From positions 1 to 21,437 of the IMG/VR virus record IMGVR_UViG_3300044729_000401: a stretch of 21,437 nt of DNA; one strand, written 5' to 3'. The position numbers were made by a program, and so were the translations under genes. Below the pieces are notes generated by a model, which searched no databases, was not told the DNA's origin, and worked only from the letters and a program-made list of their open reading frames with translations. Shown here piece by piece: positions 173 through 17,983 of this stretch; the first letter of the stretch is position 1, and each line of letters starts with the position of its first letter. This DNA comes from a virus.

Positions 173-1087
173 ATGGGCAGCACGATGGTTCAACTCGTCC
201 AGCAAGTGACAAACGAACTGGGCATCCCTACGCCGCAAACGGTGGCAGGAAACGCTAGTCAGGACGTTATTCAGATTCTCGCTCTGATGAACGCTTGCGG
301 TTACGAGTTGCTCCGTCGTGCTGATTGGCGCGAACTGACCCGCCAACACACGTTCTACACGGAAGCCATCACAACGACCGGAACGTGGAACGAAGGGGTT
401 GCCACAATAACGGCGATCCCGACGACCGCAGGGCTGTCTACGCAGTACCAAGTGCAGGGCGTGGGCATCCCCAACGCTACCTACATCACGGCTGTGACAG
501 GCTCTACGTCGGTCACGCTGAACTACGCCCCGACTGCCTCGGTTGTGGGCGGTCAGGTCATTTTCCAGAAAGTAAAGTACGACCTGCCTGCCGATTACGT
601 CAGCACGGTCAACCGCACGCATTGGGATAAAAGCAAGCGCTGGGAAATGCTTGGCCCCGAGTCGCCGCAACAATGGGAATGGCTGCTGTCGGGCTACATC
701 AGCACCGGCCCGCGTATCCGTTGGCGTTTGCTCGGCAAGTATTTCCAGATTTGGCCGGGTATGAACGGTGGCGAGTTGCTCGGCTTTGAGTACCGCAGCG
801 CCGCATGGGCAGAAAGCGCCCTTGCTGTACCGAAAAACAGTTTTACCGCCGACACCGACACTTGCATATACCCAGATCGCGTCATGGTTCTGGGTACAAA
901 ACTGAAGTATTTTGAAGCCAAGGGCTTTGACACGACGGCGCTGTACCGCGATTACCTTGCGGAACTAGAGACAGCCATCGCGCAGGACACGGCGGCAGCC
1001 AACCTGTCGTTTGCCCCGCGACCGGGTACGGTGTTGATCGGTTACGACAACATCCCTGACAGCGGCTACGGCACGAGCAGCACCTAA
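173..1087 (+). CDS. P22 gp4-like tail accessory factor / head-tail adaptor
   Basis: The 304-residue protein resembles the podoviral tail accessory factors that bind below the portal ring and extend the DNA channel (P22 gp4 type). The N-terminal helices (LVQQVTNELGIP, residues 7-19; a helical stretch ending YELLRRADW, 44-52) and the C-terminal half (WDKSKRW at 151-157, GPESPQQWEW at 161-170, then RIRWRLLGKYFQIWPG) are typical of the family. Residues about 66-130 form a Thr/Val-rich beta segment (GVGIPNATYITAVTGSTSVTLN), a common small phage add-on module that looks inserted between the two conserved halves. GGAGG at 162-166 sits six bases before this ATG and favours it over the in-frame ATG four codons later. 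The stop overlaps the next start as TAATG. The family call rests on recognised sequence style, not on a search. Confidence 0.75.
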   Translation: MGSTMVQLVQQVTNELGIPTPQTVAGNASQDVIQILALMNACGYELLRRADWRELTRQHTFYTEAITTTGTWNEGVATITAIPTTAGLSTQYQVQGVGIPNATYITAVTGSTSVTLNYAPTASVVGGQVIFQKVKYDLPADYVSTVNRTHWDKSKRWEMLGPESPQQWEWLLSGYISTGPRIRWRLLGKYFQIWPGMNGGELLGFEYRSAAWAESALAVPKNSFTADTDTCIYPDRVMVLGTKLKYFEAKGFDTTALYRDYLAELETAIAQDTAAANLSFAPRPGTVLIGYDNIPDSGYGTSST

Positions 1088-2652
1088 TGGCGTCTCCTGT
1101 TCGCAGACGGTTAGTTCAACGCACCACGGCTAACGTGGCGTCGTTGCCTGCCCCTGTCGGCGGCTGGAACGCCCGTGACGCGCTGGCAAACATGGCTCCG
1201 ACGGACGCCGTGTATCTGGAAAATATGTTCCCGAGCGTGTCCAACGTAAATTTGCGTGGTGGATACGTTAAACACGCCGTTGGGCTGCCTGCCGAAGTGC
1301 AAACGCTCATGACCTACAACGCTGGTTCAGATGTGCAGTTGTTTGCCATCAGTGACGGCAAGATTTTTGACGTTACGTCAGCAGGCACGGCAGGATCAGC
1401 GCTAGTTGCCAGCCTCGCCAACTCGCAATGGGAATACACCAACGTCACCACAGGCGGTGGTCAGTTTTTGTACGCCGCAAATGGCGTGGACAAGCCCCTG
1501 TTGTTTAACGGCACGACTTGGACGCCGATTGACGGCGTGTCTACCCCTGCCATTACGGGCGTTACCACGACCAACCTGATCCAGCCGACCTTGTTTAAGA
1601 ACCGAATGTGGTTCATTGAGAAGGACACGCTGAAGGCATGGTATCTGCCGGTGTCGTCGGTGGGCGGTGCGGCTAACGTGCTAGACCTGTCCAGCGTCAT
1701 GCACTTGGGCGGCAAGTTGCAGGCAATGGCGACTTGGACGATTGACGCGGGTTACGGCGTTGACGACAACCTTGTGTTTATTTCCGACCAAGGCGAAGTG
1801 GCCGTATATCGCGGAACCGACCCCACCAGCGCCTCTACATGGTCGCTCATCGGTGTTTGGATCATCGGTGCGCCAATTTCTCGTCGCTGCATGGCGAAAT
1901 ACGGCGGTGATTTGCTGATTTTGACGCTTGACGGGCTGATTCCGTTCGCCTCGGCGCTGCAATCGTCGCGGTTAGACCCCAACATCGCCCTTTCGGACAA
2001 AATACAGGGCGCATTTGCGGCGGCTGCACGCATTTACAAGGATACGTTTGGCTGGGGACTGCTCTACAACCCGCTTAACAACGCTTTGATCGTCAACGTG
2101 CCAGTGTCTACCGGCCAGCAGCAGTTTGTGATGAACAACATCACCAAAGCGTGGTGCAATTTTACGGGTTGGAACGCTGCGTGCTGGGCATTGGTGGAAA
2201 ACGAGCCATATTTTGGCGGCAATACCTACGTTGCCAAGGCATGGACGGCAGGTGACGGCGGTTATGCCGACGACGGCGAGCCGATCCGCACGAAAGCGCT
2301 GCAAGCGTTCAACTACTTTGAAACTCGCGGCGTCATAAAATATTTCACCCGCGCACGACCGAGCATTTTTAGCAACGGTCAGCCGAGCGTAGTCATTGGT
2401 ATCAATACCGACTTCCAAACCGCCGACCAAACGGGTGCGGTGTCGTTCTCGCCCACCGTGGCGGGACTATGGAACGTCGGTTTATGGGACGTTGCGCTAT
2501 GGGGCAGCGATGTGGTCATCACGAACAACCAATCCGGCGTAACCGGCATTGGCTACTCGGGAGCCATTTCGTTCAACAGCAGCAGCAAGAATTTGCAGGT
2601 TCAATGGGCATCAACTGACGTTGTGTATCAGATCGGATGGGCTGGAATATAG
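1087..2652 (+). CDS. Podoviral tail hub-like / beta-propeller structural protein
   Basis: The protein has 521 residues and opens with a motif common in short-tailed phage tail proteins: LPAPVGGWNARDALANM, then AVYLENMFPSVSNVNLRGGY. The remainder is beta-rich, with repeated aromatic and Gly strands (NGTTWTPIDGVST, FKNRMWFIEKDTLKAWYLP, YGGDLLILTLDGLIPF) that suggest a propeller-like fold. By position it follows the gp4-like protein, where P22 has its gp10 hub protein, so a role in closing the DNA channel is a reasonable inference. Start and stop are shared with neighbours: TAATG at 1085-1089, and the last 16 bases overlap the GNAT gene. No signal peptide or membrane segment is seen. The exact function is unproven. 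Confidence 0.65.
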   Translation: MASPVRRRLVQRTTANVASLPAPVGGWNARDALANMAPTDAVYLENMFPSVSNVNLRGGYVKHAVGLPAEVQTLMTYNAGSDVQLFAISDGKIFDVTSAGTAGSALVASLANSQWEYTNVTTGGGQFLYAANGVDKPLLFNGTTWTPIDGVSTPAITGVTTTNLIQPTLFKNRMWFIEKDTLKAWYLPVSSVGGAANVLDLSSVMHLGGKLQAMATWTIDAGYGVDDNLVFISDQGEVAVYRGTDPTSASTWSLIGVWIIGAPISRRCMAKYGGDLLILTLDGLIPFASALQSSRLDPNIALSDKIQGAFAAAARIYKDTFGWGLLYNPLNNALIVNVPVSTGQQQFVMNNITKAWCNFTGWNAACWALVENEPYFGGNTYVAKAWTAGDGGYADDGEPIRTKALQAFNYFETRGVIKYFTRARPSIFSNGQPSVVIGINTDFQTADQTGAVSFSPTVAGLWNVGLWDVALWGSDVVITNNQSGVTGIGYSGAISFNSSSKNLQVQWASTDVVYQIGWAGI

Positions 2653-3077
2653 TCAGCGGCCCCCATGTGGGGCATTGGGTCACGGCCCAAACCAACGGGG
2701 GCTATCACGCCGAACGGTCGGAAGCCATTGGACTTGAGAAAGACGGCGAGTTGATTGCCGGGACGGTGTACGAGATGTGGAACGGGCGCTCGGTCGTCTG
2801 CCACATCGCGTGGAAGCGCATCAACAAGGCGTATTTGACCGCCGTGTACGATTATGCCTACAACGTCTGCAATGTTGATAAGATAATAGGGCCGATTTCC
2901 AGCAACCATACCCGGGCGCTGAAACTGGTCACGAAAATGGGGTTTTCCGAGGAAGCGCGCATCAAGAATGGCGCACCCGACGGAGACATTGTTTTTATGA
3001 CGCAAACACCGGAACGGTGTCGTTTCTTGGAGTCTAGGTATGGGCAAGAGTTCGCCGAAGCCGCCGCCAACACCTGA
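2637..3077 (+). CDS. GNAT-fold N-acetyltransferase-like phage protein
   Basis: This 146-residue protein has the layout of a short GNAT acyltransferase (acetyl-CoA-dependent N-acetyl transfer). Strands AIGLEKDGELIAGTVYEMW (30-48) and VCHIAWKRINKAYLTAVYDYAYN (54-76) are followed by an IIGPISSNHTRALKLVTKMGF segment (83-103). The latter matches the C-terminal 'N..a..l..klGF' signature of RimJ/RimL-type enzymes. The canonical Q/RxxGxG/A acetyl-CoA loop is not obvious, so activity is uncertain. It overlaps the preceding gene by 16 bases and the following one by 38, so it belongs to the tail operon. Similar small GNAT proteins occur among podoviral structural genes, where they may modify a virion or host protein or be structural only. 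Confidence 0.65.
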   Translation: MGWNIVSGPHVGHWVTAQTNGGYHAERSEAIGLEKDGELIAGTVYEMWNGRSVVCHIAWKRINKAYLTAVYDYAYNVCNVDKIIGPISSNHTRALKLVTKMGFSEEARIKNGAPDGDIVFMTQTPERCRFLESRYGQEFAEAAANT

Positions 3078-6000
3078 TTACAATCAGATCGCCATGCTGC
3101 AAGGGCAAGCCAATAAAGAGGCTGCCCAGCAATCGGCGTATATGTCCAATCCGAACATATACACGCCGACAGCATCGCAAACCGTAACTTGGAACAAAAC
3201 CCCGCAGTTCAACCAAGCGGGCTTTGACAAGGCGATGGCCGACTACCAAGCGCAAGTCGCTGGTGGTAACGAATTCGCCGCTGTTCCAACGCAAGAACAG
3301 TTCACCTCTTACGTTGAACAGCCGACGATTCGCCAAGAACTGACCGGCAAAGCCAAAGACATTTTTGCCTCCCAACAGCAAGCCGAGCAAGCAATGTCGT
3401 TGTTGGGGTTGCGCGAGATTGGCGACCTTAACAAGTTCCTTGACCAAGATTTCCAAGCCCAACTGCCGCAACTTCAGACGGCGTTGGCTAACTACGGCCA
3501 AGTTGCCCAAACCCCTGATCTGACTAAATTTGGTCAAGCGGGTGGCGTAGCCGCAGGCGCAGGCGGTGTCGTTGCAGGCGCACCAACGCCCACTAACCTG
3601 CAAACTGGATTCACCGCTGACCAAGTGCCGGGACAATTTACCCCGCAGGGTCAAGCAGGCTCCAACGTCAGCGCGTTTGGGATGGCTGACACCTCGGGGT
3701 TAAACCAAGGTCAGGCGCAAGGCGGCATCGGCGCTACGGGCGCAATTAGCGGCGCACCAAACCTTGCTGGCATGGGTCAAGCAGGTACAGGCGGGGTGCA
3801 AGCCGGTGCGGGTATGCCCGGTCAAGTCAACCTTGGCGCTTACGGCCAAGCGGGCGCAAATGTTAGCCCGACCGGCGTGGCGTATGGCCCTTTTGCCGGT
3901 CAATACGGCATGGCAACGGGCGGCCCAAGCGCGTACAACCTCGGGCAACTGAATTTGGCTGGCGTTGGCGGTGTGCAAGGCGCACCCGGCGCGGGTCAGT
4001 TTGGCACGGCGCAAGGCGGCCCCGGTGGCGTGCAGTTTGGCGGTCTTGACCTGTCAGGGCTTGGCATGGCGCAGGGTGGCCCGAGCGCGGGCTTATATGG
4101 CTTTGCAGGCGCTGGCCCGCAGGGGCTTAACCTTGGCGGGTTTGACGCCAGCCGCGTCGGCGCACTTGCTAACGCTCCCTCGGGCGATCAGTTTGGTCGC
4201 GCTATCGGTGGCCCTGCCGCACCGTCGTTAGAAACCAACCTCAACCTCTCGGGCGTGGGCGATGTCTCGCGCAACGTGCAAGAGGGTCGGTTTGGTTACG
4301 CACGCGGTGATTTAGCAACCCCCGAACTTCAGCGCCAGTTAAGCACCGCGGGCTTGGCCGCTATGCCGGTCAATGCAGGTATGAGCGCACAAAGCGCCAT
4401 CATGTCGCGCCTTGATCCGCAGTTGCAGCGTGAGCGGGCGCAGTTAGAGCAGCGCCTTGTGAACCAAGGCTTGCGGCCGGGCGGTGAGGCGTACAACGCC
4501 GAAATGGAATTGCAAGCGCAACGTGAAAACGACTTGCGTACCCAAGCCGCGTTGCAAGGCATCTCGCTTGACGCTTCTATGCGTCAGCAGGGGCTTGCCG
4601 AGCAGCAGACATTGGCTGACTTTGCCAACCAAGCGGCGCTTTCGCAGTTTGGCGCAGGCGCACAGGGGCTTGGCCTCTACAACGAGGCGCTGGCGCAGAA
4701 CTTCCAACAGTCGTTGGCCGCGCAATCAGCCGCCAACATGGCGCAGCAGCAAGCGTTCCAACAGCGCGTGCAAGCCGGTCAGTTTGGACAAGAAGCGCAG
4801 ATGGCGTCGTTTGGTATGGGTCAACAGGCTCAACAAGCGATCAACCAAGCGCAAGCACAAAACTTCCAACAGGCTCTTGCCGCACAGCAGGCGCAAAATG
4901 CAGCACAGCAACAAGGCTTTGCCCAGCAGTTGGCAGGTCAAGAGTTTGGTCAACAAGCCGCTTTGGCTGGATTTGGCACTCAACAACAAGCGCAGCAGAT
5001 GGGTAATCAGGCTGCCGCCCAAAACTTCCAACAAGCGTTAGCCGCAGCGCAGCAGGGCAACCAAGCCCAGCAGCAAAACTTCTTGCAGCGCGTGGCCGCA
5101 GGCGAGTTTGGTCGCGAAGCGCAGTTGGCGACGTTCCAAACGGGACAGCAAGCCGCACAAGCGCAAAACCAAGCCATCGGTCAGAACTTCCAGCAAGCCC
5201 TTGCCGCCCAACAGGCTGCCAACGCCGCGCAGGCGCAGCAGTACGGTCAGGCAGTCGGTGCCGGGGAATTCAACCGCGATGCGCTGCTCGCACAGTTTGG
5301 AATGGGGCAGCAGGCGACACAGGCGCAAAACCAAGCCATCGCGCAAAACTTTGCCCAAGCGCAAGCCGCAGCACAACAACAGAATCAAGCGGGCGCACAA
5401 CAGTTTGGTCAGCAATTGTCAGCGCAGGAACTTGCCAACCAAGCCGTCGCGCAGAACCAAGCCTCTGCCGCACAACAAGCGCAGATTAACGCTGCATTGC
5501 AGGGTCAAACTTTCGGTCAGCAGACACAAGCCGCGCAGTTGGGCAATCAAGCACTCGCGCAGAACCAACAGGCAGCGCTACAGCAGCAACAGGCTGCCAA
5601 CGCAGCACAGCAGCAACAGTTTGCACAGCAAATGGGGCAAGCCGAGTTTGCTAATCAGGCTCTCGCGCAAAACCAGCAGGCTGCTTTGCAGCGTTACCAA
5701 GCGTTGTTGGCCGGTCAGGGTCAGCAATTCGGTCAACAAGTAACCGCGCAAGAATTGCAAAACCAAGCGCTGTCGCAAAACCAACAGCAAGCCTTGGCGG
5801 CGTACCAAGCCAACCTTGCACGCCAAGCACAGGGCTTCCAGCAGGCAGGAGCGCAAGCCGAATTTGGCAATCAAGCGCAGTTGCAGCAATACCAGCAGTT
5901 GTTGGCTGCCCAAGCCGCCGCCAACCAAGCGCAGCAACAGCGTTTTGGTCAGACGATGGATTTGCAAGGTCTGTACAACGCTTCCATCCTGCAAAACCAG

Positions 6001-6549
6001 CAAGCCGCGTTGCAGCAACAAGCCGCACAGAACGCCGCACAGCAGCAGATGTACAACCAAGCCGCAGGCGCCGCGACGTTCCAGAACCAAGCCGTGCAGC
6101 AGGCATTGCAGCAGCAGTTGGCACTACGCAATCAGCCGCTCAACGAGATTTCAGCGTTGTTGTCGGGATCGCAGGTGCAAATGCCGCAGTTCCAAGCCTA
6201 CAACCCGGTGCAGGTGCAAGCGACTCCGTACCTGCAAGCCATGCAGGCGCAAGATTCTGCCGCGATGCAGCGTTACGGCATCGCCGCAAACCAAGCATCA
6301 AGCAATATGTCGGGCTTGTACGGATTGGCCGGAAACCTTGGCAGCGCCGCCATCATGTTCTCGGATCGCCGCTTGAAGTCCAACATCGTGCGCGTCGGAA
6401 CGCACCCGCTCGGCATCGGCGTGTACGAGTACGACATCGGCGGCGAACGCCAACGCGGCGTAATGGCCGACGAAGTGGAGACGGTGCTGCCGGTGGCCGT
6501 ATTGACGCGGCCTGACGGTTACAAGATGGTCAACTACGGACTTTTGTGA
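3040..6549 (+). CDS. Giant Gly/Gln-rich tandem-repeat virion protein with C-terminal Peptidase_S74 domain
   Basis: The 1169-residue protein has four parts. (1) An N-terminal head (1-170) of the phage 'MGKSSPKPP..PDYNQIA' type, with a TASQTVTWNKTPQFNQAGFD segment. (2) A Gly-rich zone (about 180-425) that includes four tandem 32-33-residue repeats at 287-415. (3) A Gln/Ala-rich rod with four 54-residue units (553-768) and seven 36-residue units (769-1020), in which about one residue in three is Gln. (4) A short Peptidase_S74 domain from Ser1108 (FSDRRLKSNI; S1108 and K1113 match the Ser-Lys dyad of endosialidase tailspike chaperones) through RGVMADEVETVLP and DGYKMVNY to the end. S74 domains trimerise fibres and then cleave themselves off, so this is probably a trimeric fibre or rod on the virion, although the N-terminus also resembles candidate ejection proteins. 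The start overlaps the GNAT gene by 38 bases. Confidence 0.8.
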   Translation: MGKSSPKPPPTPDYNQIAMLQGQANKEAAQQSAYMSNPNIYTPTASQTVTWNKTPQFNQAGFDKAMADYQAQVAGGNEFAAVPTQEQFTSYVEQPTIRQELTGKAKDIFASQQQAEQAMSLLGLREIGDLNKFLDQDFQAQLPQLQTALANYGQVAQTPDLTKFGQAGGVAAGAGGVVAGAPTPTNLQTGFTADQVPGQFTPQGQAGSNVSAFGMADTSGLNQGQAQGGIGATGAISGAPNLAGMGQAGTGGVQAGAGMPGQVNLGAYGQAGANVSPTGVAYGPFAGQYGMATGGPSAYNLGQLNLAGVGGVQGAPGAGQFGTAQGGPGGVQFGGLDLSGLGMAQGGPSAGLYGFAGAGPQGLNLGGFDASRVGALANAPSGDQFGRAIGGPAAPSLETNLNLSGVGDVSRNVQEGRFGYARGDLATPELQRQLSTAGLAAMPVNAGMSAQSAIMSRLDPQLQRERAQLEQRLVNQGLRPGGEAYNAEMELQAQRENDLRTQAALQGISLDASMRQQGLAEQQTLADFANQAALSQFGAGAQGLGLYNEALAQNFQQSLAAQSAANMAQQQAFQQRVQAGQFGQEAQMASFGMGQQAQQAINQAQAQNFQQALAAQQAQNAAQQQGFAQQLAGQEFGQQAALAGFGTQQQAQQMGNQAAAQNFQQALAAAQQGNQAQQQNFLQRVAAGEFGREAQLATFQTGQQAAQAQNQAIGQNFQQALAAQQAANAAQAQQYGQAVGAGEFNRDALLAQFGMGQQATQAQNQAIAQNFAQAQAAAQQQNQAGAQQFGQQLSAQELANQAVAQNQASAAQQAQINAALQGQTFGQQTQAAQLGNQALAQNQQAALQQQQAANAAQQQQFAQQMGQAEFANQALAQNQQAALQRYQALLAGQGQQFGQQVTAQELQNQALSQNQQQALAAYQANLARQAQGFQQAGAQAEFGNQAQLQQYQQLLAAQAAANQAQQQRFGQTMDLQGLYNASILQNQQAALQQQAAQNAAQQQMYNQAAGAATFQNQAVQQALQQQLALRNQPLNEISALLSGSQVQMPQFQAYNPVQVQATPYLQAMQAQDSAAMQRYGIAANQASSNMSGLYGLAGNLGSAAIMFSDRRLKSNIVRVGTHPLGIGVYEYDIGGERQRGVMADEVETVLPVAVLTRPDGYKMVNYGLL
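3898..4284 (+). repeat. Gly-rich 32-residue tandem repeats within the giant virion protein
   Basis: Four in-frame units of 32, 32, 32 and 33 codons encode residues 287-415. They start GQYGMATGGP, GQFGTAQGGP, GLYGFAGAGP and DQFGRAIGGP, and each carries a Leu/Asp-Leu-Ser-Gly-x-Gly-like segment near its middle (for example LNLAGVGGVQ, LDLSGLGMAQ). A degenerate fifth start, GRFGYARGD, follows. The repeats are conserved in amino acids but diverged in DNA, so they are old and under selection. The composition suggests a glycine-rich triple-stranded beta or polyproline-II-like stalk. Confidence 0.75.
4696..5343 (+). repeat. Four tandem 162-bp (54-residue) Gln/Ala-rich repeats
   Basis: Units cover residues 553-606, 607-660, 661-714 and 715-768. 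Each begins QNFQQ(A/S)LAA and carries G(Q/E)F near residue 29-30. By direct counting each is exactly 54 residues, with no insertions or deletions. They lead straight into the 36-residue array. The DNA copies are diverged, so this is not a recent expansion. Confidence 0.85.
5344..6099 (+). repeat. Seven tandem 108-bp (36-residue) Gln/Ala-rich repeats
   Basis: Units start at residues 769, 805, 841, 877, 913, 949 and 985 and each is exactly 36 residues long. Most begin QN(Q/F) and end in an NQALA-like segment (GNQALA, ANQALA, QNQALS). They share their first 20 or so residues and the (A/G)(E/Q)(F/L) segment with the 54-residue units. They therefore look like the long unit minus 18 residues. Confidence 0.85.
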
Positions 6550-6558
6550 GGACATGAC

Positions 6559-6966
6559 ATGAACGGACGCCGCCCAATGAATATGCCCATGCAGCCCGAC
6601 CGTCGCCCACAAGAGTTGGCGCGTGTCATGGCAATGCAGGAGCGCAACAGCAGCCTTAACAGCCCGTTTCCGCAACAAGCGATGCGTTCGTCGTCAGCGT
6701 ATGCAGGCGCAACGCCTAACACGGCTCCCGGTATGCCGCCGCAAGCGATGAACTTTAACGGCCCTCCCGGCCCGCAGCAGTACCAAGGGCCGATTAGCAA
6801 CCCCGCCATGAGCGCAATGGCCCCGCCGCAGCAGGGCGCACCGCAAATTGGCGGCATGATGCGCCCACGGCAACCAATGGGTGCAGGCGCACGCGGTTAT
6901 CCGTCCTCCCCCGGCATGACGACGCCGCAGGGAGGGGCCTACCGAGGGGACTTTGATGGCAATTAA
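6559..6966 (+). CDS. Pro/Gln/Met-rich low-complexity small phage protein
   Basis: This 135-residue protein is of unrecognised family and is dominated by Pro, Gln, Met, Gly and Ala (for example PMNMPMQPDRRPQ, PPQQGAPQIGGMM). It has a short helical stretch, PQELARVMAMQERN, near the N-terminus. It is predicted to be disordered and has no membrane segment. GAGGA at 6548-6552 lies six bases before the ATG, and the preceding gene ends only nine bases upstream. Its last 11 bases overlap the next gene. The location between the giant repeat protein and candidate ejection proteins suggests a minor virion or assembly component. No enzymatic motif is visible. Confidence 0.7.
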   Translation: MNGRRPMNMPMQPDRRPQELARVMAMQERNSSLNSPFPQQAMRSSSAYAGATPNTAPGMPPQAMNFNGPPGPQQYQGPISNPAMSAMAPPQQGAPQIGGMMRPRQPMGAGARGYPSSPGMTTPQGGAYRGDFDGN

Positions 6967-8209
6967 GCAATACGCGGCTTTTACGCCCCCATCACCTTAC
7001 GAGCAGGAACGCCGTAAGGCAGAGCAAATGCGCCGTTACGCCGAACTACTGCAAGAACAGGCAGCGGCAGAGGACGAACCTTTCACTTACCAAGGGTTTC
7101 GTGCGATGCCCTCGCCCGCTGCTGCACTCGGTAAACTGTTAAAGGCGTACGGCTCTAAAAAGGCTGGCGAAAAGGCTGAAGAAGCCGAACAAAAAGCCCG
7201 CGAGGCTGATTTGCAGGGCTTTGAAACGCTACGCCGCGAACTTGGCCCGCAACAACAGGTTATGGAGCCAGATATGTTTGCTGATCCAATGCAAATGGGC
7301 AGCAAATACACGCCGCCTCAAATGCAGACGGTTATGCCGACAGAAAAAGAGCGAGAAGATCGCCTTATGACGGCAATGGCTTCCGGCTCCCCGACTGCAC
7401 AGCGTTACGCGCAACTAATGTTGGCGCGTGAACCAAAAACGCAAACAATGGAGTTTGGCGATCAACTGCTAAACGTGACCGATGGCGTAGCAACGCCTGT
7501 TACGATGGGCGGCAAGCCTGTAACGGCATCACCAAAACCAGCAGCAGGCAGTTCGTTAAGTAAATTGCTTGCAGAGCGTGATGCGCTGCCGCCAAACAGT
7601 CCGTTACGTCAGACATATGATGCGGCTATTTTGAAAGAAACAAGCAATGCCCCTTTAATTGGAAAACTTGACCTTGGTGAAAAAGGTAGCGCAATAGGGC
7701 AAGAGATATTCCTAAAAGACATCGGGGAAATGCGTCCAAGGGCTTACGCCGCTACAAATATTATCCGCGCCGTGAACAATTTGGATCGCTTGACGCAAAA
7801 AGGCACTTATACAGGGTCGCTTGCGCCAAACGCCGTGGGCGCTGGGCAGTTCTTAAATAGCATCGGTATCAAGATTGATCCAAAAACGCTGCAAAACACC
7901 GAAGCGTTTAGCGCACAGGTAAGCGATTTGGTTATGTCGGCGCAGGCGGCGCTTGGCGGCGCTCGCGGGTTTACCAAAGAAGAAACTGCAATTTTGATGC
8001 AGATGTTCCCGCAAATCATCAACAGCCCAGAGGCTCGCGTTACGATTGGCAACATCATTCGCAACAAGCAACTTGAAGTCATTGATGAGTATGATTCGCT
8101 GATTAACGACTATAAAGAAACTTACAAAGACTCAAGAATTCCGTACAAGCCTATTGATGACGAAGAAGTGCGTTATCAACGCTGGAAACGTAGCCAAGGG
8201 GGTCGCTAA
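6956..8209 (+). CDS. Putative internal virion / ejection protein
   Basis: The protein has 417 residues from ATG 6956. GAGGGGA at 6944-6950 is spaced five bases from this ATG, so it is preferred over a TTG one codon upstream. The N-terminal part is helical and highly charged (YEQERRKAEQMRRYAELLQEQAAAEDE, then KKAGEKAEEAEQKAREAD), with coiled-coil potential. The C-terminal half (from about IGQEIFLKDIGEMRPRAYAATN) is a helical domain, with AQAALGGARGFTKEETAILMQMFP and an acidic, Tyr-rich end. No enzyme signature or signal peptide is seen. It is joined to the next gene by TAATG. Large helical proteins in this position of podoviruses are often ejected with DNA, so the role given is inference from position and composition. 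Confidence 0.6.
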   Translation: MAIKQYAAFTPPSPYEQERRKAEQMRRYAELLQEQAAAEDEPFTYQGFRAMPSPAAALGKLLKAYGSKKAGEKAEEAEQKAREADLQGFETLRRELGPQQQVMEPDMFADPMQMGSKYTPPQMQTVMPTEKEREDRLMTAMASGSPTAQRYAQLMLAREPKTQTMEFGDQLLNVTDGVATPVTMGGKPVTASPKPAAGSSLSKLLAERDALPPNSPLRQTYDAAILKETSNAPLIGKLDLGEKGSAIGQEIFLKDIGEMRPRAYAATNIIRAVNNLDRLTQKGTYTGSLAPNAVGAGQFLNSIGIKIDPKTLQNTEAFSAQVSDLVMSAQAALGGARGFTKEETAILMQMFPQIINSPEARVTIGNIIRNKQLEVIDEYDSLINDYKETYKDSRIPYKPIDDEEVRYQRWKRSQGGR

Positions 8210-9846
8210 TGGACGACTTCACGCCAGAAGAAGTTGAACGCTTTAAAAAGCGTTTAATGGAAGAACAAGGCGCTGCTAACGCAAGCGCAATGACGCATAC
8301 GGTATCAACGCCCGTTTCTCGTCCGTCATCTACGCCGCAAGCGCGTATGTACGACCCTAGTACCGGCACTATCGGCGGCGAAGTAAATCCTTTGGTTCGC
8401 GCATTGATGGGCGTGGGCGCTGGTGTTGAGCGTGCCGTCTCAAGTGCTGGCGAATTGACTGGATTGGTATCGCCAGAGCGTTACCAGCAAATTAAAGAGC
8501 GCAACGAGCCGTTTACGCAAGGGCCAGCGGGGGCAACGGGCGAATTTGTTGGCGAAACAGCCGCAACATCGCTTATGGGCGGCCCCATCGGGCGCATGTT
8601 CCGCATGGGTGGCCCGATTATGCGCGGTGCTATTGAAGGCGGCGCAACCACTTACGCCACCGCCGAGCCAGAATCACGACGCACAGAGGGTGCATATGGC
8701 ACGTTGGCGTCAGCCGCATTACCTGCCGCTGGCAGGACAGCCCGCGCAGCCGTCAGCGGCATTGATATGTCACCTGCCGCACGCCGACTGACAAAAGAAG
8801 GCGTTGAGTTGACGCCGGGGCAAGTTGCGCCAAATGGTACTTGGGCAATGGTTGAAGAATCCATGATGCGGATTCCGCTTATTGGCCCCAAGGTTGCGGC
8901 AGCCCGTGAACGAGGGTGGCAACAAACCCAAGCATTGATTGGAAAAGAAGCGGCCCCACCGGGATATACGCCGCCTGCCCGCTCAGATGTGCGTGATACC
9001 TACAATGACCTAAAAGACGCTTATAACACCGCTTACGATCAATTTAAGGGTTATCCATTACAGCCTGTGTTAATGCGGGTGCAAGGTGGTAATGTCCCGT
9101 TGTCGCAAGCAATGGCGGTTCCGCGTCAATCGGCTGCTGATGCTAAATCGCGCCGTTATGTTCAGAATCTTATTGATAACGAGTTAAGCCGTGTCAAAGG
9201 GCGTCAACTTACTAGCGGCGATTTGTTAACAATCCGATCCAATATCCGCGCAAAACTGCGCGATATGTCAGGTAATCAAAATTTTCCTGATGCAGAATCG
9301 TTGTTAAAAAACGCTGAAACAAAAGCAACTGAAATATTGGAATCGCAGTTGCCGCCTGACGCCATGAAAGCGTTGCGTGCGGTAGATGCTAAATACGGCA
9401 ACTTTAAAGTTTTTGAAGATGCCATTGTTCGCTCTAAAGATCGTCCAGATGCATTTACGCCAGCGCAGTTTTCTACGGCTGTTAAAGAAAGCACGGGCAG
9501 CAAAGGGCAGTACGCTAGTGGTGGCGGTCGTATGCGCGACATTGCCGCTGAATCTGCTGATGTGTTTTCGCCCCGCACTCCCGTAACTGGCGCACAACAA
9601 CCAAGTCAACTTGTCGGTTATGCGGCTGCGATACCTGCATCATTGGTGTATGGCGACCGTGGCCGCAAATTGGGCAAAGTGTTGGCAGGTCAAACGGAAA
9701 TTCAACGTCAGATTCAAGATTTTGAGCGCCAATTCCGACGCAAGTTGTCGGCGCGGGAGCGTGAAGATTTGGCGCGGGTTCTACGCATGGGCGCATCACA
9801 GTACGCTGCACAAGAGCAGCCTTACTTTGCGACGACACAGGAGTAA
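8209..9846 (+). CDS. Putative DNA-ejection / internal virion protein with Gly-rich hydrophobic segment
   Basis: This 545-residue protein starts in a TAATG overlap with the previous gene. Residues about 106-151 (GPAGATGEFVGETAATSLMG onward) are Gly/Ala-rich with GxxxG-like spacing, as in proteins that enter membranes during genome delivery. Residues about 194-255 carry a motif set recurrent in phage internal or ejection proteins: LTKEGVELTPGQ, then EESMMRIPLIGPKVAAARERGW and QALIGKEAAPPG. The rest is helical (LTSGDLLTIRSNIRAKLRDM; the C-terminal basic helix IQRQIQDFERQFRRKLSARE). No catalytic lysozyme or protease motif is recognised. Together with the preceding gene it could form a pair of ejection proteins, which is an inference. 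Confidence 0.6.
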   Translation: MDDFTPEEVERFKKRLMEEQGAANASAMTHTVSTPVSRPSSTPQARMYDPSTGTIGGEVNPLVRALMGVGAGVERAVSSAGELTGLVSPERYQQIKERNEPFTQGPAGATGEFVGETAATSLMGGPIGRMFRMGGPIMRGAIEGGATTYATAEPESRRTEGAYGTLASAALPAAGRTARAAVSGIDMSPAARRLTKEGVELTPGQVAPNGTWAMVEESMMRIPLIGPKVAAARERGWQQTQALIGKEAAPPGYTPPARSDVRDTYNDLKDAYNTAYDQFKGYPLQPVLMRVQGGNVPLSQAMAVPRQSAADAKSRRYVQNLIDNELSRVKGRQLTSGDLLTIRSNIRAKLRDMSGNQNFPDAESLLKNAETKATEILESQLPPDAMKALRAVDAKYGNFKVFEDAIVRSKDRPDAFTPAQFSTAVKESTGSKGQYASGGGRMRDIAAESADVFSPRTPVTGAQQPSQLVGYAAAIPASLVYGDRGRKLGKVLAGQTEIQRQIQDFERQFRRKLSAREREDLARVLRMGASQYAAQEQPYFATTQE

Positions 9847-9852: not shown

Positions 9853-12800
9853 ATGAGTTTTAACGGTTCCGGCACGTTCGTCATCAACTCGGCGGGTCAA
9901 CCCGTCGTCGCTAACACCGTCATTTCGGCCACGACGTTCAATGCGCTAACGTCTGACCTTGCTAACGGCTTGTCTACCTGTATCACCAAAGACGGGCAAA
10001 GCACGCCGACCGCCAACATCCCAATGGGCGGGTTCAAGATCACAAACCTTGCTACCGGCACGGCTGCCTCGGACGCGGCTACGGTCGCGCAGATTCAGAG
10101 CAACGGCGCTGCTCTTGTCACGGTAACGGGTACGGACACGCTGACGGGTACGCTGACGCCTGCATTGGTCGCCTACGTCACGGGCGCTGTGTACTACTTC
10201 GTCGCCCCCGCTACGAACACGGGTGCAGTCACGCTCAACATTGACACCCTCGGCGCTAAAGCCGTTACCCGAGATGGCACGACAGCCCTTGTGGCCGGTG
10301 ACATCGTGTCTGGCGAAATGGTCGCTGTTGTGTATGACGGCACGCGCTTCCAACTGATCAGCCCGGTTAACAGTTACACCAATCTCAACGTCTCCGGCAC
10401 GCTGACTGTAGCCGGTGCGACGACCCTTAACGGCAACCTGCAAGTCGGCAACGCGGCTGCGGATACGGTTAACTTTCAAGCAAGCGGCTGGACGCTGACC
10501 AACCCGGTTTCTATCACCGGAACGTGGGCTGACATCGGCACGATCACGACTGCCGACATTAACGGTGGAACCATTGACGGCACGACCATTGGCGGCGGCA
10601 CGGCTGCTGCGGGTACGTTTACGACCGTAGGCGCGACGACCGGCAACATCACGACCGTCAACGCAACGACGGTAGACAGCACCAACCTTGAAGTAACCAA
10701 CCTCAAGGCAAAGGACGGCACCGCCGCAGGCTCTATTGCCGACTCCACGGGCGTTGTGACGCTGAACAGCGTTGTAGCGACTACTGCCGACATCAACGGC
10801 GGCACGATTGACGCTACCACTATCGGTGGATCGTCACCTGCTGTGGGTAACTTTACGACCGTCTCGGCTGCCTCGGCGGTCTTTACGACGGCGACCATTA
10901 CCACGGTCAATACGACGACCCTTGACCTGACCAACCTTGAAGTCACCAACATCAAGGCTAAAGACGGCACGGCGTCCATGACGATTGACGACGCCACGGG
11001 CAAGGTCAACGTTACGACGGTTTCTGCCGCTTCTATGAACGCGGCAGTTGCAGCCATCACGACCGGATCGGTTACTAGCCTCACGGCTACGGCTGCCTCG
11101 GTTGCCAGCATGAACGCAGGCGTTGCGTTGCTGACGACTGCCACGGTCACAACGCTAAACGCCTCGGGCGCATCTATTGCCTCGGCCAACATCGGCAACC
11201 TTCAGTTTACGGCTGCCTCTATCGCCTCCATCAACGCGGGCGTGGCGGTTATCAACAACCTGACGGCTACAAGTGCGTCTATTGCCTCCGCTAACGTTGG
11301 TACAGCCGTTATTACGACCGGAACGCTGACTAACCTCACCGCAACCAGCGCCTCTGTAGCGTCGGCTAATGCGGGCGTGGCGCTAATCACCACAGGCACG
11401 GTGACAAGCCTGACGGCCACAGGGGCCAGCGTAGCGTCGGCTAACGTCGGCACGGCGGTTATTACAGGGCTGACGGTTACGGGCGCGTCCATCGCCTCGG
11501 TTAACGCAGGAACGGCTACGCTCTCAAGCAACCTCACGCTCAACGGCGGCACCGCCAACGGCGTGCTGTATCTGAACGGCAGCAAGGTGGCGACGAGTGG
11601 TAGTGCGCTGGTATTTGATGGCACTAACCTCGGTATCGGGGCTAGTTCGCCTTCGTATCCGCTGCAAGTACGTCGTGCTGGCGGGGCTGGCTCTGTTGGC
11701 ATAACTGTTGATGGCGTGACAGGAGTTGCAGACAGAACAACACAATATTTTGCGATTGGAGACTCAACTTCAGCCACGACGGGGCACGCTTTTTACACCA
11801 GAGCGGCAACTGCAACTGACGTTTTGAGATTGGCTATTACTACTGACGGCAACGTTGGCATCGGGACTAGTTCGCCTGCCGCAAAGTTGCACGTTTCTGG
11901 GCAAACCAGAATTGCGGATAGCAGCAGCGCATCTAACTATATTTTGATCGGGTCAGGTGCTAATGCGCCTCGTGGCGGTAATTCCGTCATGGCGCAGACT
12001 GGTTCCATGGTGATGGGAACAGAAGCCGCTTCCAACCTAATTTTTATTACAAACGCAGCAGAGGCTGGACGGTTTGACTCCTCCGGCAACCTCGGCATCG
12101 GCACGAGCAGTCCGACAAACTACGGCGCTACATATAAAACGCTTGCTGTAAACGGCTCATCAACGGGAATTGTTGATGTCATGCAGAACGGCACGGTCTA
12201 CGGCCAGTTGTCTACAGAGGCTAATGTTTACAAGGTTGAGGCAGTTGGTGCGTCAACTGTGCTTCGTCTTGTTACGAACGGTGCGACTCGCGCCACGCTA
12301 GACTCCTCCGGCAACCTCGGTCTGGGCGTCACGCCCCCGGCATGGGAAAGCGGCACCCAATCAATCAACATTGGCGCTGGTACTGCGCTTTGGAATCCCG
12401 GTAGCGGGACTGCTACACGACTTTTAACAAACGCTTACCGACCCGCATCAGGCAATTACACATACCGCAACAACGGCGGTGCGGGTATGTACGAGCAAAA
12501 CGGCGCAGAACATCGTTTCTTTACCGCAGCCACCGGCACCGCAGGCAACACCATCTCGTTCACGCAGGCGATGACGCTGAATGCGAGTGGGAATTTCGGC
12601 ATCGGGACGAGTTCGCCAGACGGCCCGCTCCAAGTGTCTTTTGCCGATGCTGAAACTTCGCAGTTTAACGCTGGTGCCGCTGTTGCGTACTTAACAAATA
12701 CAAACACAACCAACAACAACTGGGCGCAGATTTTTTGGACAGATTCAGATGGCGGTGCTGCTGCCGCTGCATTTGGCGCGCAATACACAGATCACACAAA

Positions 12801-13440
12801 CGATTATGCAGCATTGTCGTTCTCTACACGCGGGACTAGCGGACTTGGCGAACGCGTTCGCATCACGAGCGGGGGGTATTTCAAGGCGAGTAATGCTGGG
12901 ACGTATAACAACAGCACTGCGGCATATCATGAGATGCGAAGCAGTGATGCGAGCCAACCTGCACTTATAGTCAGCAACACAAACGGCTCTTACACCGCCT
13001 CTGTTGTAGAAGTGATTGGTCAGCCAACTGGCACGGGATTCAACTTTATTCGCGCATTAGATGGCGCTGGTAACGCTGTTAAATTTAACGTGCGTGGCGA
13101 TGGCAATGTCACCAATACCAACGGTTCATACGGCACTATTTCAGACGAGCGACTAAAGCAAGACATTGCAGATGCCCCGTCACAATGGGATGACATCAAG
13201 GCTGTGCGGTTCCGCAAGTACCGAATGAAGGATGACGTAGCGCGTGACGAAAGCGCTCCGTACCTGCTCGGTGTTGTTGCTCAAGAGTTAGAGCAAGTGT
13301 CGCCGGGACTTGTTGACGACGGCGAAGTAAAAACCGTCAAGTCATCTATTCTGCTGATGAAAGCCGCAGTTGCCCTGCAAGAAGCAATGGCGCGTATTGA
13401 ACAACTTGAGGCGAAAGTCGCCGCATTGGAGAGCAAATAA
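9853..13440 (+). CDS. Tail fibre with repeat shaft and C-terminal Peptidase_S74 chaperone
   Basis: The 1195-residue receptor-binding fibre candidate has these parts. The N-terminal attachment region (1-170) is typical of phage fibres (SGTFVINSAGQPVV, IPMGGFKITNLATGTAASDA). It is followed by a Thr/Asn/Gly-rich shaft (STNLEVTNLKAKDGT repeats), a block of 17-25-residue ASxASxNxG repeats (410-560), and a distal region with recurring G-N-x-G-I-G-x-S-S-P motifs (five copies, one of them the variant GNLGLGVTPP). The end is a full S74 domain: ISDERLKQDI (S1097 and K1102 form the expected Ser-Lys dyad), LGVVAQELEQVSP, then a coiled coil (MARIEQLEAKVAALE). AGGAG at 9839-9843 is nine bases upstream of the start. 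Family knowledge predicts trimer assembly followed by self-cleavage at Ser1097. The next gene overlaps as TAATG. Confidence 0.88.
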   Translation: MSFNGSGTFVINSAGQPVVANTVISATTFNALTSDLANGLSTCITKDGQSTPTANIPMGGFKITNLATGTAASDAATVAQIQSNGAALVTVTGTDTLTGTLTPALVAYVTGAVYYFVAPATNTGAVTLNIDTLGAKAVTRDGTTALVAGDIVSGEMVAVVYDGTRFQLISPVNSYTNLNVSGTLTVAGATTLNGNLQVGNAAADTVNFQASGWTLTNPVSITGTWADIGTITTADINGGTIDGTTIGGGTAAAGTFTTVGATTGNITTVNATTVDSTNLEVTNLKAKDGTAAGSIADSTGVVTLNSVVATTADINGGTIDATTIGGSSPAVGNFTTVSAASAVFTTATITTVNTTTLDLTNLEVTNIKAKDGTASMTIDDATGKVNVTTVSAASMNAAVAAITTGSVTSLTATAASVASMNAGVALLTTATVTTLNASGASIASANIGNLQFTAASIASINAGVAVINNLTATSASIASANVGTAVITTGTLTNLTATSASVASANAGVALITTGTVTSLTATGASVASANVGTAVITGLTVTGASIASVNAGTATLSSNLTLNGGTANGVLYLNGSKVATSGSALVFDGTNLGIGASSPSYPLQVRRAGGAGSVGITVDGVTGVADRTTQYFAIGDSTSATTGHAFYTRAATATDVLRLAITTDGNVGIGTSSPAAKLHVSGQTRIADSSSASNYILIGSGANAPRGGNSVMAQTGSMVMGTEAASNLIFITNAAEAGRFDSSGNLGIGTSSPTNYGATYKTLAVNGSSTGIVDVMQNGTVYGQLSTEANVYKVEAVGASTVLRLVTNGATRATLDSSGNLGLGVTPPAWESGTQSINIGAGTALWNPGSGTATRLLTNAYRPASGNYTYRNNGGAGMYEQNGAEHRFFTAATGTAGNTISFTQAMTLNASGNFGIGTSSPDGPLQVSFADAETSQFNAGAAVAYLTNTNTTNNNWAQIFWTDSDGGAAAAAFGAQYTDHTNDYAALSFSTRGTSGLGERVRITSGGYFKASNAGTYNNSTAAYHEMRSSDASQPALIVSNTNGSYTASVVEVIGQPTGTGFNFIRALDGAGNAVKFNVRGDGNVTNTNGSYGTISDERLKQDIADAPSQWDDIKAVRFRKYRMKDDVARDESAPYLLGVVAQELEQVSPGLVDDGEVKTVKSSILLMKAAVALQEAMARIEQLEAKVAALESK
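11080..11532 (+). repeat. ASxASxNxG shaft repeats in the tail fibre
   Basis: Residues 410-560 consist of seven imperfect units built on LTATxAS(V/I)ASxN(A/V)GxAxITT. Their lengths are about 25, 18, 17, 25, 25, 20 and 21 residues. The five-residue difference between 25 and 20 corresponds to a loss of the TGT(L/V)T-type turn. The pattern fits a trimeric beta-spiral or beta-helix shaft. Confidence 0.7.
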
Positions 13441-15004: not shown

Positions 15005-15480
15005 AGGTTAGTCCTGCCGCAATCCGCATGATTAAGCATCATGAGGGCGTAAGGACGCGCCCTTATCGGTGTCCGGCTCTGCTATGGACGGTCGGGGTCG
15101 GCCACGTTATAGACCCTTCACACGCAGCGGTGAAATATGAAGAACGGCGCACTTTACCGATACCCGAGGGCTGGGATCGCAGCCTCTCTATGGGAGAGGT
15201 GGACGCTATCCTTGCTCAAGACCTTGGCCGGTTTGAGCGCGGCGTGGCCCGACTTTGCCCTTCTGCTGTTGATTATCAAGGGCAGTTTGATGCCCTCGTT
15301 TCCTTTTCTTTTAACGTGGGGCTAGGCAACCTCCAACGCTCGTCATTACGCATGAAACACAATCGTGGTGACTTTGAAGAAGCCGCCGACGAGTTTATGA
15401 AGTGGACAAAGGCCGGTGGCCGAGTGCTGCCCGGTCTTGTAAAGCGGCGTCAGGACGAACGTGCGCTGTATGTTGGCTGA
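15001..15480 (+). CDS. GH24 lysozyme endolysin (T4-type muramidase)
   Basis: The 159-residue endolysin cleaves the MurNAc-GlcNAc bond of peptidoglycan. Its catalytic layout is E15-x8-C24-x5-T30 (HHEGVRTRPYRCPALLWTVGVGH). This is the E-x8-D/C-x5-T signature of phage lysozymes, with Cys in the place of T4 Asp20, as in several other GH24 enzymes. The C-terminal lobe has FDALVSFSFNVGLGNLQRSSL and LPGLVKRRQDERALY, both standard for the family. There is no signal peptide or SAR segment, so export depends on the holin. The start is a GTG overlapping the holin stop as GTGA, with no clear Shine-Dalgarno, so translation is probably coupled. The TGA stop lies inside the 3' acceptor strand of the opposite-strand tRNA. 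Confidence 0.92.
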   Translation: MKVSPAAIRMIKHHEGVRTRPYRCPALLWTVGVGHVIDPSHAAVKYEERRTLPIPEGWDRSLSMGEVDAILAQDLGRFERGVARLCPSAVDYQGQFDALVSFSFNVGLGNLQRSSLRMKHNRGDFEEAADEFMKWTKAGGRVLPGLVKRRQDERALYVG

Positions 15481-15548
15481 AGGGGCTGGGATTGAACCAG
15501 CATTCACAGCTCCAAAGGCTGCTGTCCTGCCAATTAGACGACCCTTCA
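15474..15548 (-). tRNA. tRNA-Gln (anticodon UUG), CCA encoded
   Basis: The reverse strand folds into a complete 75-nt cloverleaf. The acceptor is TGAAGGG/CCCTTCA and the D-stem is GTCT/GGAC with an 8-nt GG-containing loop. The anticodon stem is GCAGC/GCTGT with loop CTTTGGA (anticodon TTG, read UUG). The variable loop has four nt and the T-arm is GCTGG-TTCAATC-CCAGC. Discriminator G and an encoded CCA follow. The U1-A72 pair and discriminator G are typical tRNA-Gln identity features. Oddities are C at position 9 and G at position 37. The 5' seven bases start with the stop codon of the upstream minus-strand gene. The 3' end overlaps the last seven bases of the plus-strand lysozyme, including its stop. 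It closes the early operon. Confidence 0.9.
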
Positions 15549-16433: not shown

Positions 16434-16612
16434 ACCTTCTTCTCCGTCACTTCGCACACGCCAATCTCAACCATTTTTTCAAGACAACATCTCATGCAGA
16501 ACCTTTTCACGCTATAGTCAATAGTGCTACTGAATGTAACAACGCTTTCCACAACGCCGTGAGTTGGGCAGATGTATTCCGGATTGCTAATAATTAACTT
16601 GTCGTCGTTCAT
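16430..16612 (-). CDS. Small Cys-rich Zn-ribbon-like protein
   Basis: This 60-residue protein has putative metal ligands C15 and H18 (ICPTHG), then C39, C42 and C43 (FCMRCC), and a further C53. That is a Zn-ribbon-like layout with the two knuckles about 20 residues apart. The N-terminus is NDDKLIISNPEY and the C-terminus is basic (TEKKV). Small Zn-ribbon proteins are frequent in phage early regions and may bind DNA or host polymerase, but the partner here is unknown. It starts in an ATGA overlap with the preceding paralogue gene. Confidence 0.7.
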   Translation of the reverse strand: MNDDKLIISNPEYICPTHGVVESVVTFSSTIDYSVKRFCMRCCLEKMVEIGVCEVTEKKV

Positions 16613-16833
16613 TTCATTTCTCCTCTCGCACGTATAACGTCTGCAATAAACCCTGCGCGGTATTTTTCAAGTTCAGACAACGCACCACTTTCAATTTGGA
16701 CGTCGCATATCTTCGCACACGCCTCCCGCTCGGCTGCGGCAACGAGAGCGGCGAATTTATGGACTCGCTCAAAGGCTAACGCGCCAATGACATAAGTTTC
16801 TGCCCACAACTTGTTTATTTCCTTACTAGTCAT
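16609..16833 (-). CDS. FAALVAAAERE-motif small protein, paralogue 3
   Basis: The 74-residue protein is the third of three tandem relatives. It has an N-terminal helix (SKEINKLWAETYVIG), then the shared core RVHKFAALVAAAEREACAKICDVQ (24-47) and a variable C-terminus (LEKYRAGFIADVIRARGE). Short proteins with this (R/K)FAAL(V/I)AAAERE core are common in phages and have no assigned function. It starts and ends in 4-base ATGA overlaps. The core is encoded by a DNA segment that is nearly repeated in the two neighbours (16725-16754 here). Confidence 0.75.
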   Translation of the reverse strand: MTSKEINKLWAETYVIGALAFERVHKFAALVAAAEREACAKICDVQIESGALSELEKYRAGFIADVIRARGEMK

Positions 16834-17042
16834 TTCGCACCTAATTTACGAAGTTTTTGAGCCACGTGACGTCCGTAATATGGCCTGTCCTCTTCCTTGT
16901 CAAAAACCATAGCAAGCCTTTCTCGCTCGGCTGCGGCAACGAGGGCGGCGAAGCGTTCAAGTGATTCGGTGCTCGGGCCAATGTAAACATCGCCAGCAGA
17001 CCAAACTTCCTGCGCTAGTCGGATGATGTCATCGTGGGTCAT
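16830..17042 (-). CDS. FAALVAAAERE-motif small protein, paralogue 2
   Basis: The 70-residue middle copy has an N-terminal MTHDDIIRLAQEVW helix, closely matching MTRDEITAMARNCGW of copy 1. The core is ESLERFAALVAAAERERLAMVFD, and the C-terminal segment (EEDRPYYGRHVAQKLRKLGAK) is basic and unlike the others. It is coupled to both neighbours by ATGA overlaps. The role is unknown. A conserved helical core with different C-termini suggests a shared binding surface with different targets, which is inference. Confidence 0.75.
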   Translation of the reverse strand: MTHDDIIRLAQEVWSAGDVYIGPSTESLERFAALVAAAERERLAMVFDKEEDRPYYGRHVAQKLRKLGAK

Positions 17043-17287
17043 AAAAAACCTCTCGCACGTTCCTTAGCCTGCCATTCCAATGCCTTCAACAAACCCTCAA
17101 TGGTGTCGCCGTGGCCGGTGGCATAGTCACGTTCAATCATCCACGCGGCTACCTTTTCCCGCTCGGCTGCGGCGATAAGGGCGGCGAAGCGTTCAAGTCG
17201 TCCGGTCAAGACTGGGTATTCCATTTCGCGCCCAACTTTTGCCCATCCGCAATTTCTAGCCATTGCGGTAATTTCGTCGCGGGTCAT
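17039..17287 (-). CDS. FAALVAAAERE-motif small protein, paralogue 1
   Basis: This is the 82-residue first copy in transcription order. The N-terminal helix is MTRDEITAMARNCGWAKVG, the core is GRLERFAALIAAAEREKVAAWM, and the C-terminus is DTIEGLLKALEWQAKERARG. It overlaps the ybcO-like stop (ATGA, 17284-17287). No enzyme motif or membrane segment is seen. The function is unknown, as for its two relatives. Confidence 0.75.
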   Translation of the reverse strand: MTRDEITAMARNCGWAKVGREMEYPVLTGRLERFAALIAAAEREKVAAWMIERDYATGHGDTIEGLLKALEWQAKERARGFL

Positions 17288-17568: not shown

Positions 17569-17983
17569 ACACCGGCTCCGGTATCACAATGCCCATTTCG
17601 GCGCAGCGTGTTTCTAGGAATAACAGATAATCGCTGAATTCTTGTTTGGTCAGTTTGCTAGAGCGTTTGAGCGGGCGCATACGTTTGCGGCCAAAGCCTT
17701 GCAGCGTCTCCCAGCCAAAACACTCACCAAGGAAATACTCATGTAGGTCGTCCCGCGTCCAACCTGCCAGCGTTTCGCCACCGCCCTCTAGGATTGCGGG
17801 GTAGCACACGCCCCACAGAAAACGATTCTGATGATCGGTGCGCGGCTTCTTCCACTCCAGCACCTCTATGCACCACGCACGGTCAGACGATAGCCCCTGC
17901 ACCATGCGTGCGGCAGCCGTCGCCAACTGTTCTGGCGTCGTGCCCTTGGGAAATATGCGCTTCAACGGCTTGCCTCTAGCCAT
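17555..17983 (-). CDS. ninB: NinB-like recombination protein
   Basis: The 142-residue protein has the NinB style: KKPRTDHQNRFLWGVCYPAI (45-64), then GWTRDDLHEYFLGECFG, RPLKRSSKLTKQEFSDYLLF and a C-terminal AEMGIVIPEP. Lambda NinB (Orf) is a recombination mediator that binds SSB and ssDNA and helps the annealing protein. Here ERF and an SSB-like gene lie upstream in the same operon. It starts 22 bases inside the glycosyltransferase gene. AAGGA directly abuts the ATG at 17981-17983, which is poor spacing, so the start could instead be the TTG six codons further on, preceded by GAGG. Confidence 0.8.
   Translation of the reverse strand: MARGKPLKRIFPKGTTPEQLATAAARMVQGLSSDRAWCIEVLEWKKPRTDHQNRFLWGVCYPAILEGGGETLAGWTRDDLHEYFLGECFGWETLQGFGRKRMRPLKRSSKLTKQEFSDYLLFLETRCAEMGIVIPEPVYEPA

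Follow-up and report, generated by a model that had tools for sequence, protein, structure and literature searches.

The virus record IMGVR_UViG_3300044729_000401 (IMG/VR; 21,437 bases, hereafter the window) encodes, at 3040..6549 on the plus strand, a 1169-residue protein in which a Gly-rich arm and a rod of 18-residue units are locked in length. Among its relatives the two arms lengthen and shorten together, and their insertions and deletions (indels) are mirrored about the conserved turn between them. Sequence comparison thus makes it probable that the arms are coupled and antiparallel. In a P22-like podophage gene order, the gene sits where the first ejection protein (gp7/IVPB) is encoded, and a fold-back rod in this slot is the overall explanation towards which we lean.

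Organization of the rod protein

The rod protein runs from MGKSSP... to ...MVNYGLL, with a start common to its homologues, and matches phrog_6121 ('virion structural protein', E=5e-52) in three stretches over its conserved parts. Its N-terminal domain (residues 1-150, 3040..3489) is marked by invariant columns in a conserved N-P-N-x-x-T-P-x-x-x-Q-T-V-x-W motif, and AlphaFold predicts a beta/alpha segment at residues 45-101 with a predicted local distance difference test (pLDDT) score of up to 80-90. The Gly-rich arm, nearly 300 residues long here, follows. Its outer part (residues 151-286, 3490..3897), delimited by the length law and mirror map described below, is predicted to lie beside seven 36-residue rod units. 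Its inner part (residues 287-414, 3898..4281) consists of four units of about 32 residues, which begin GQYGMATGGP..., GQFGTAQGGP..., GLYGFAGAGP... and DQFGRAIGGP..., and is predicted to lie beside four 54-residue rod units.

The tip (4330..4695), the most conserved part, is formed by a helix, a PGGEAYN turn (residues 481-486, nucleotides 4480-4497) and a second helix. The rod then comprises four 54-residue units (3 x 18, types A-B-C; 4696..5343) and seven 36-residue units (2 x 18, types A-D; 5344..6099), up to a conserved rod end, RNQPLNEISALLSG (6127..6168), and holds 26-28 units of 18 in all. A Gly-rich apolar tail (NMSGLYGLAGNLGSAAIMF, 6304..6360) lies directly before the predicted self-cleavage site of a Peptidase_S74 / ICA chaperone domain (6361..6546; Pfam PF13884, E=4.7e-5, 24 bits against a cut-off of 22). 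A Protein Data Bank (PDB) sequence search with the rod protein gave no match, and Foldseek with the full model against the PDB gave nothing significant, the model being too uncertain. The tip region alone had no tblastn match in phage records.

The rod keeps an 18-residue register

The initial annotation had described, by counting, four gapless units of 54 residues (553-768) followed by seven of 36 (769-1020), and both counts and coordinates are correct (residue 553 corresponds to nucleotide 4696, and residue 1020 ends at nucleotide 6099). Self-identity is 0.63 at lag 54 within residues 553-768 (z=15 versus shuffles) and 0.43 at lag 36 within residues 769-1050 (z=9.7). Since lag 18 is significant on its own (z=6.5 in the 54-residue zone), the basic unit is 18 residues. 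The shorter unit is indeed the longer one minus 18: it matches a 54-residue unit lacking 18 residues after position ~30-31, with an identity of 0.51 against 0.21 expected from composition. Tandem Repeats Finder detected no tandem array in the rod DNA, and DNA identity among the 54-nucleotide units averages 0.43 (copies mostly ~40-65% alike); the copies are therefore old, and the rod is not a young DNA repeat.

To compare relatives, we combined a scan of viral contigs (48 loci), a partly overlapping profile scan (78) and three further scans into 98 distinct proteins, denoted by L-numbers; a scan of genome contigs for rod-protein relatives found none. Complete rods hold 14 to 41 units, and a chain search with 18-residue profiles found zero register breaks in the close family. 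As a penalty-free test of register, we measured the distance between two conserved anchors, one ahead of the rod (GGEAYN) and one beyond it (PLNEI). This distance is 18n+12 in every one of the first 45 distinct proteins, over 16 different lengths. In the same proteins the lengths of the N-terminal part spread over 15 of the 18 residue classes, and the PLNEI-to-SDRRLK distances fall into 8 classes for 8 lengths.

Across all 98 proteins, 62 have the remainder 12 (21 lengths) and 31, forming a distant clade, the remainder 8 (five lengths, 98 to 170). Three have the remainder 1, shifted by a further 7 from the distant clade; L029 alone has the remainder 13, with its additional residue before the rod; and one protein is a short form without a rod. 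The clades are offset from each other by 4, 7 and 11 residues, which are the shifts that an alpha-helical rod tolerates. Indels of 18, and also those of 7, 11 and 4 residues, keep the helical phase, as an alpha-helical 18/5 rod demands. Every same-clade relative keeps its rod in steps of 18, and because unit numbers are both odd and even, the quantum is 18 and not 36 or 54.

Rod and Gly-rich arm change length in lockstep

The length of the N-terminal part rises with that of the rod (rho 0.98). We defined G as the distance from a conserved N-domain anchor to the turn and d as the distance from the turn to PLNEI. In the main clade (43 proteins, L090 left out), G = 66.9 + 10.44 x (d/18), with R = 0.9998 over d = 264-786 and a scatter (standard deviation) of 1.5 residues. 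This law foretold three later-found proteins to within about 1 residue. The distant clade follows nearly the same slope (G of 157, 160, 167 and 171 for d = 109, 116, 127 and 134), and certain of its members bear an additional insert. The sister clade only seemed to breach the law: its excess comes from a separate Pro-rich insert ahead of the anchor, and once this is excluded the clade obeys the law within about 6 residues. In L136-L154 of this clade, roughly residues 60-180 are a highly variable Pro/Gly-rich insert within the N-terminal domain, unrelated to rod length.

The lockstep holds when descent is taken into account. With phylogenetic independent contrasts, for which the tree left out both arms, rod and Gly-rich arm correlate at r = 0.991. 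All 45 contrasts in which the rod changes have the same sign in both arms, and where the rod is unchanged the Gly-rich arm hardly changes. The strict selection on length proposed in the initial annotation is not borne out, as the number of units varies widely and is locked instead to the length of the Gly-rich arm. Selection acts on the register, in steps of 18, and on the match to this arm, not on a fixed total length.

Paired indels are mirrored about the turn

L001 and L024 are 99% identical in protein sequence outside two insertions, one of 30 residues in the Gly-rich arm and one of 54 in the rod. We identified 14 distinct indel pairs of this kind (Gly-rich arm/rod, for example 31/54, 93/162, 21/36, 44/72, 62/108 and 83/144), which partly share descent and are not all independent events. 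Their insertion points are mirrored about the turn (dG = 0.571 dR + 24, r = 0.98), and the positional slope of 0.571 equals the length ratio of 0.58. Antiparallel arms lying side by side predict exactly this, and a parallel arrangement fits the indel sites worse (r = 0.59). A nucleic-acid hairpin behind the mirrored sites was rejected, as we found zero DNA inverted repeats and a ratio of ~31:54 where 1:1 is required.

The same map accounts for the layout of the protein in the window. The switch from 54- to 36-residue units at residue 769 maps to residue 292 of the Gly-rich arm, where the four 32-residue units start at 287, and lag 32 is strong in this arm only from ~287 onward (z=7.6). The protein therefore reads as a zone beside the 36-residue units and 4 x 32 residues, then the turn, then 4 x 54 and 7 x 36 residues. 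With 1.5 Å per helix residue, the strand would rise by about 2.6 Å per residue and would thus be nearly extended.

Conformation of the rod

The consensus of 507 distinct 18-mers is Q1, F3, Q5, L7, A9, apolar 12, N14 and A16, and their composition is 31% Gln and 25% Ala, with Lys almost nil and Pro absent. Large apolar residues stand at positions 3, 7, 12 and 17, so that the strongest hydrophobic period is 4.5 and not 3.6; a period of 3.6 is present but weaker, and no single apolar stripe of this period dominates. On an alpha-helix, positions 3, 7 and 17 (with Q10 and N14) share one face with exact 18/5 spacing and position 12 lies opposite, so that apolar residues occupy two faces. In the AlphaFold models the rod is entirely helical, both within the protein (pLDDT about 45) and as a 278-residue fragment with 28 sequences (pLDDT 45); the outer part of the Gly-rich arm scores about 27-30. 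The Gln/Ala helix suggested by the initial annotation is thus favoured, because of the Gln- and Ala-rich composition without Pro, the clade shifts and the helix modelled at low confidence; that low confidence itself and the 4.5-residue period count on the other side.

Gene order and C-terminal domain

The window has a P22-like podophage order of gp4-, gp10- and gp14-like genes, the rod gene, genes for a small protein and for two probable ejection proteins, and a tail-fibre gene. On the plus strand, a tail protein in the P22 gp4 / tubular A slot (173..1087; phrog_6013, E=1e-40) is followed by the P22 gp10 / tubular B slot (1087..2652; phrog_5107, labelled 'amidase', E=3e-123), in the same position as phiGT1_15, which is annotated as P22 gp10-like. 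Next comes a GNAT-like protein in the P22 gp14 slot (2637..3077; phrog_4470, E=8e-27, and the phiGT1_16 annotation). Beyond the rod gene lie a small Pro/Gly/Gln protein in the position of Mx8 p55 (6559..6966) and two probable ejection proteins, one in the gp20 slot (6953..8209; assigned by position, with only E=0.02 to phrog_598) and one in the gp16 slot (8209..9846; phrog_26400 'DNA ejection protein', E=1e-5). Set against the orders of P22, phiGT1 and Mx8, the rod gene thus follows gp4-gp10-gp14 and precedes gp20-gp16, which is the position of gp7. The position of the gp26 needle is a different one, between gp10 and gp14, and hhalign gave no match to P22 gp26 (E=0.54) and nothing for P22 gp20.

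Short relatives of 300-360 residues occupy the same slot in phiGT1, RHph_I3_18, EBPR podovirus 2 and Mx8. All 13 short relatives match phrog_6121 and nine of the 13 match phrog_4287 'DNA ejection protein'; the annotation that relatives carry is structural only. The rod protein has no phrog_598 match. In the same region of Pseudoalteromonas phage H6/1, a protein joins an N-terminus of the gp7 family (phrog_598, 4e-16) to a C-terminus of phrog_6121 type that includes S74. By gene order, the rod protein takes the place of gp7; a direct comparison with gp7 did not establish homology.

In the S74 domain, the SDRRLK... segment keeps the catalytic Ser and the Lys at +5, in the dyad spacing seen in self-cleaving ICA domains such as MYRF (S578/K583; PMC3742443). 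Self-cleavage and trimerisation of the rod protein are predicted. Several long-rod relatives have no S74 domain and end near the predicted cut site; no separate S74 gene lies downstream of them, the next gene directly adjoining. Since these proteins end near the cut site, it is suggested that the mature rod protein ends in the apolar tail.

A proposed fold-back model

We propose a model in which the chain would leave an N-terminal base as an extended Gly-rich strand, turn at the conserved PGGEAYN tip and come back as a long alpha-helix, rich in Gln and Ala, whose 18-residue units make five turns each. Along this helix the strand would pack antiparallel, ~10.4 of its residues spanning 18 of the helix, so that neither arm could be lengthened or shortened by itself. 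Back at the base end would lie the apolar Gly-rich tail and the S74 chaperone, which is detachable. Most probably the protein is an oligomeric virion protein, folded as a trimer and then released by S74 self-cleavage, and the oligomer would form or line a conduit or rod, the number of units setting its reach. For a role in ejection, probably as the first ejected protein, we see an even chance. More tentatively, the protein may represent a previously undescribed kind of rod: a hairpin of two unlike length-locked repeat arms, one helical with 18-residue units and one extended and Gly-rich with ~10.4-residue units (54/32 or 36/21), serving as an adjustable-reach conduit of the first-ejected podophage protein.

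Several observations weigh against this model. L090, the sole main-clade exception to the length law, has a Gly-rich arm ~18 residues too short for its rod, which may reflect a second pairing mode or a recent change. In three of the five indel pairs examined (L011/L017, L019/L022 and L103/L114), divergence is higher in the middle block than in its flanks, which suggests exchange of a central block between alleles in part of the pairs. AlphaFold gives no confident model of either the rod (pLDDT 45) or the Gly-rich arm (27). The hhalign comparisons of the rod family and short relatives with the P22 gp7 families are not significant (E=0.3; 0.018, probability 2.6%; and 0.38). Relatives also match tail-fibre families, mostly via the S74 domain, and such chaperones are most familiar from external tail fibres and spikes. 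A straight helix of ~550 residues would measure near 83 nm, which exceeds a typical podophage head.

Alternative explanations

The main rival, which we regard as unlikely yet worth serious consideration, is that the same fold-back rod is not ejected but stays outside, as a trimeric needle or a central tail fibre that would traverse the capsule and take over the function of the gp26 needle, which is missing. In the window, gp10 and gp14 abut and no gp26 separates them, a length of 80 nm or more suits the outside better than a small head, and several tail-fibre families are matched via the C-terminal part; trimerisation and maturation of tail fibres and spikes are the work of S74 domains (PMC3742443). 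However, P22 and its relatives have their ejection slot behind gp14, the H6/1 protein demonstrates that S74 occurs on proteins with a gp7-family N-terminus, and several long-rod relatives lack S74 altogether.

It is improbable that the arms do not lie on each other and that both separately measure a third object, such as a partner protein or tube, in tape-measure fashion. Siphophage tape-measure proteins do carry 11- and 18-residue aromatic repeats, and tails become shorter when these proteins are shortened (PMC5099701, PMC3271669). Measurement of a third object would not predict mirrored indel sites at the same ratio around the turn, and the lengths of the neighbouring genes and proteins show no positive trend with rod length.

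We give little credence to readings that make the rod a beta-solenoid, or a disordered FG/Q-rich gel of low complexity, rather than a helix. FG dipeptides, the richness in Gln, Gly and Asn, the 4.5-residue period and the low AlphaFold confidence would suit it, and one coil of a left-handed beta-helix also takes 18 residues. On the other side stand the high Ala and Gln without Pro, the helix-typical clade shifts, the weak hydrophobic periods of 6 and 9 and the helix of both AlphaFold models; a disordered chain, moreover, would tolerate ordinary indels, which the rod lacks. Finally, the steps and the lockstep can hardly be structurally meaningless consequences of slippage in the DNA, of inverted repeats or of a central gene block being exchanged: unequal exchange between repeats would yield unit-sized steps, and block exchange would leave diverged middle blocks, but the DNA copies are old and form no tandem array, inverted repeats are absent, the middle blocks of L001/L024 and L014/L038 are not clearly more diverged than their flanks, and block exchange by itself does not fix the ratio.

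Other features of the window

A tRNA-Gln (anticodon TTG; Rfam, 57 bits) lies at 15474-15548 on the minus strand. The rod protein contains 245 Gln among its 1169 residues (CAA 130, CAG 115), and the phage tRNA could therefore help its translation. One tRNA, of whatever identity, is present in seven of 12 records of rod-bearing relatives. The tail fibre (9853-13440, plus strand) is a second S74-ended protein with a Thr/Ala-rich repetitive stalk. The window also encodes a phage lysozyme (15001-15480) and an ERF-type single-strand annealing protein (19352-19999, minus strand; Pfam E=9e-23). Three tandem small open reading frames of 74, 70 and 82 residues (16609-17287, minus strand) have a common ERFAALVAAAERE-like motif and no Pfam match, and look like tandem paralogues. 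A 220-residue open reading frame (17962-18624, minus strand) appears glycosyltransferase-like by eye (MKVFIGWDSREDIAYQV..., VFVDCDFLFRGD), with no Pfam match at 0.01.

Comparison with known systems

Lockstep and mirrored indels make the rod protein an unusual case, in which an architecture can be read from sequence statistics despite failed structure prediction. The rule that they yield is precise and testable: 18 residues of helix go with 10.4 of strand, in antiparallel arrangement. With rods that range naturally from short ones to ~40 units, experiments could ask what sets the reach of a podophage's DNA-delivery apparatus. The architecture also offers a simple, extendable design for protein rods.

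Among known systems, P22 gp7 and T7 gp14-type (IVPB) proteins share with the rod protein a slot that immediately follows the gp14-like (P22) gene and has two larger ejection genes behind it, a Gly-rich apolar C-terminal tail and, by eye, a helix-Gly turn-helix core. The gp14/gp7-like proteins reviewed span 181-240 residues (PMC8954989), whereas the rod protein has 1169 and its family up to 1541, and gp7 has neither rod nor Gly-rich arm. The phrog_6121 members (phiGT1_17, Mx8 p54 and those of Rhizobium phage RHph_I3_18 and EBPR podovirus 2) are alike in N- and C-terminal domains, tip motif and gene order, and most have the PLNEI motif and S74; they differ in their 300-360 residues, with little or no rod and no Gly-rich arm.

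Tape-measure proteins of Gram-positive siphophages resemble the rod in their aromatic-marked repeats of variable number, with no sequence relation claimed. In TP901-1 these repeats have 11 or 18 residues, and partial-repeat deletions harm plaque formation (PMC5099701). They are mainly of 11 residues and some of 18, whereas the rod keeps 18 throughout, with F3/N14/A16, a podophage slot and a paired Gly-rich arm. The C-terminal domain resembles Peptidase_S74 / ICA domains (endosialidase, MYRF) in its Ser and the Lys five residues on, but it follows a helical rod and an apolar Gly-rich tail rather than a triple beta-helix, and is optional within the family. The stalks of YadA-type adhesins, which belong to the bacterial outer membrane, are likewise helical, with exact 15-residue repeats whose number sets the reach; we know of no second arm that scales with such a stalk.

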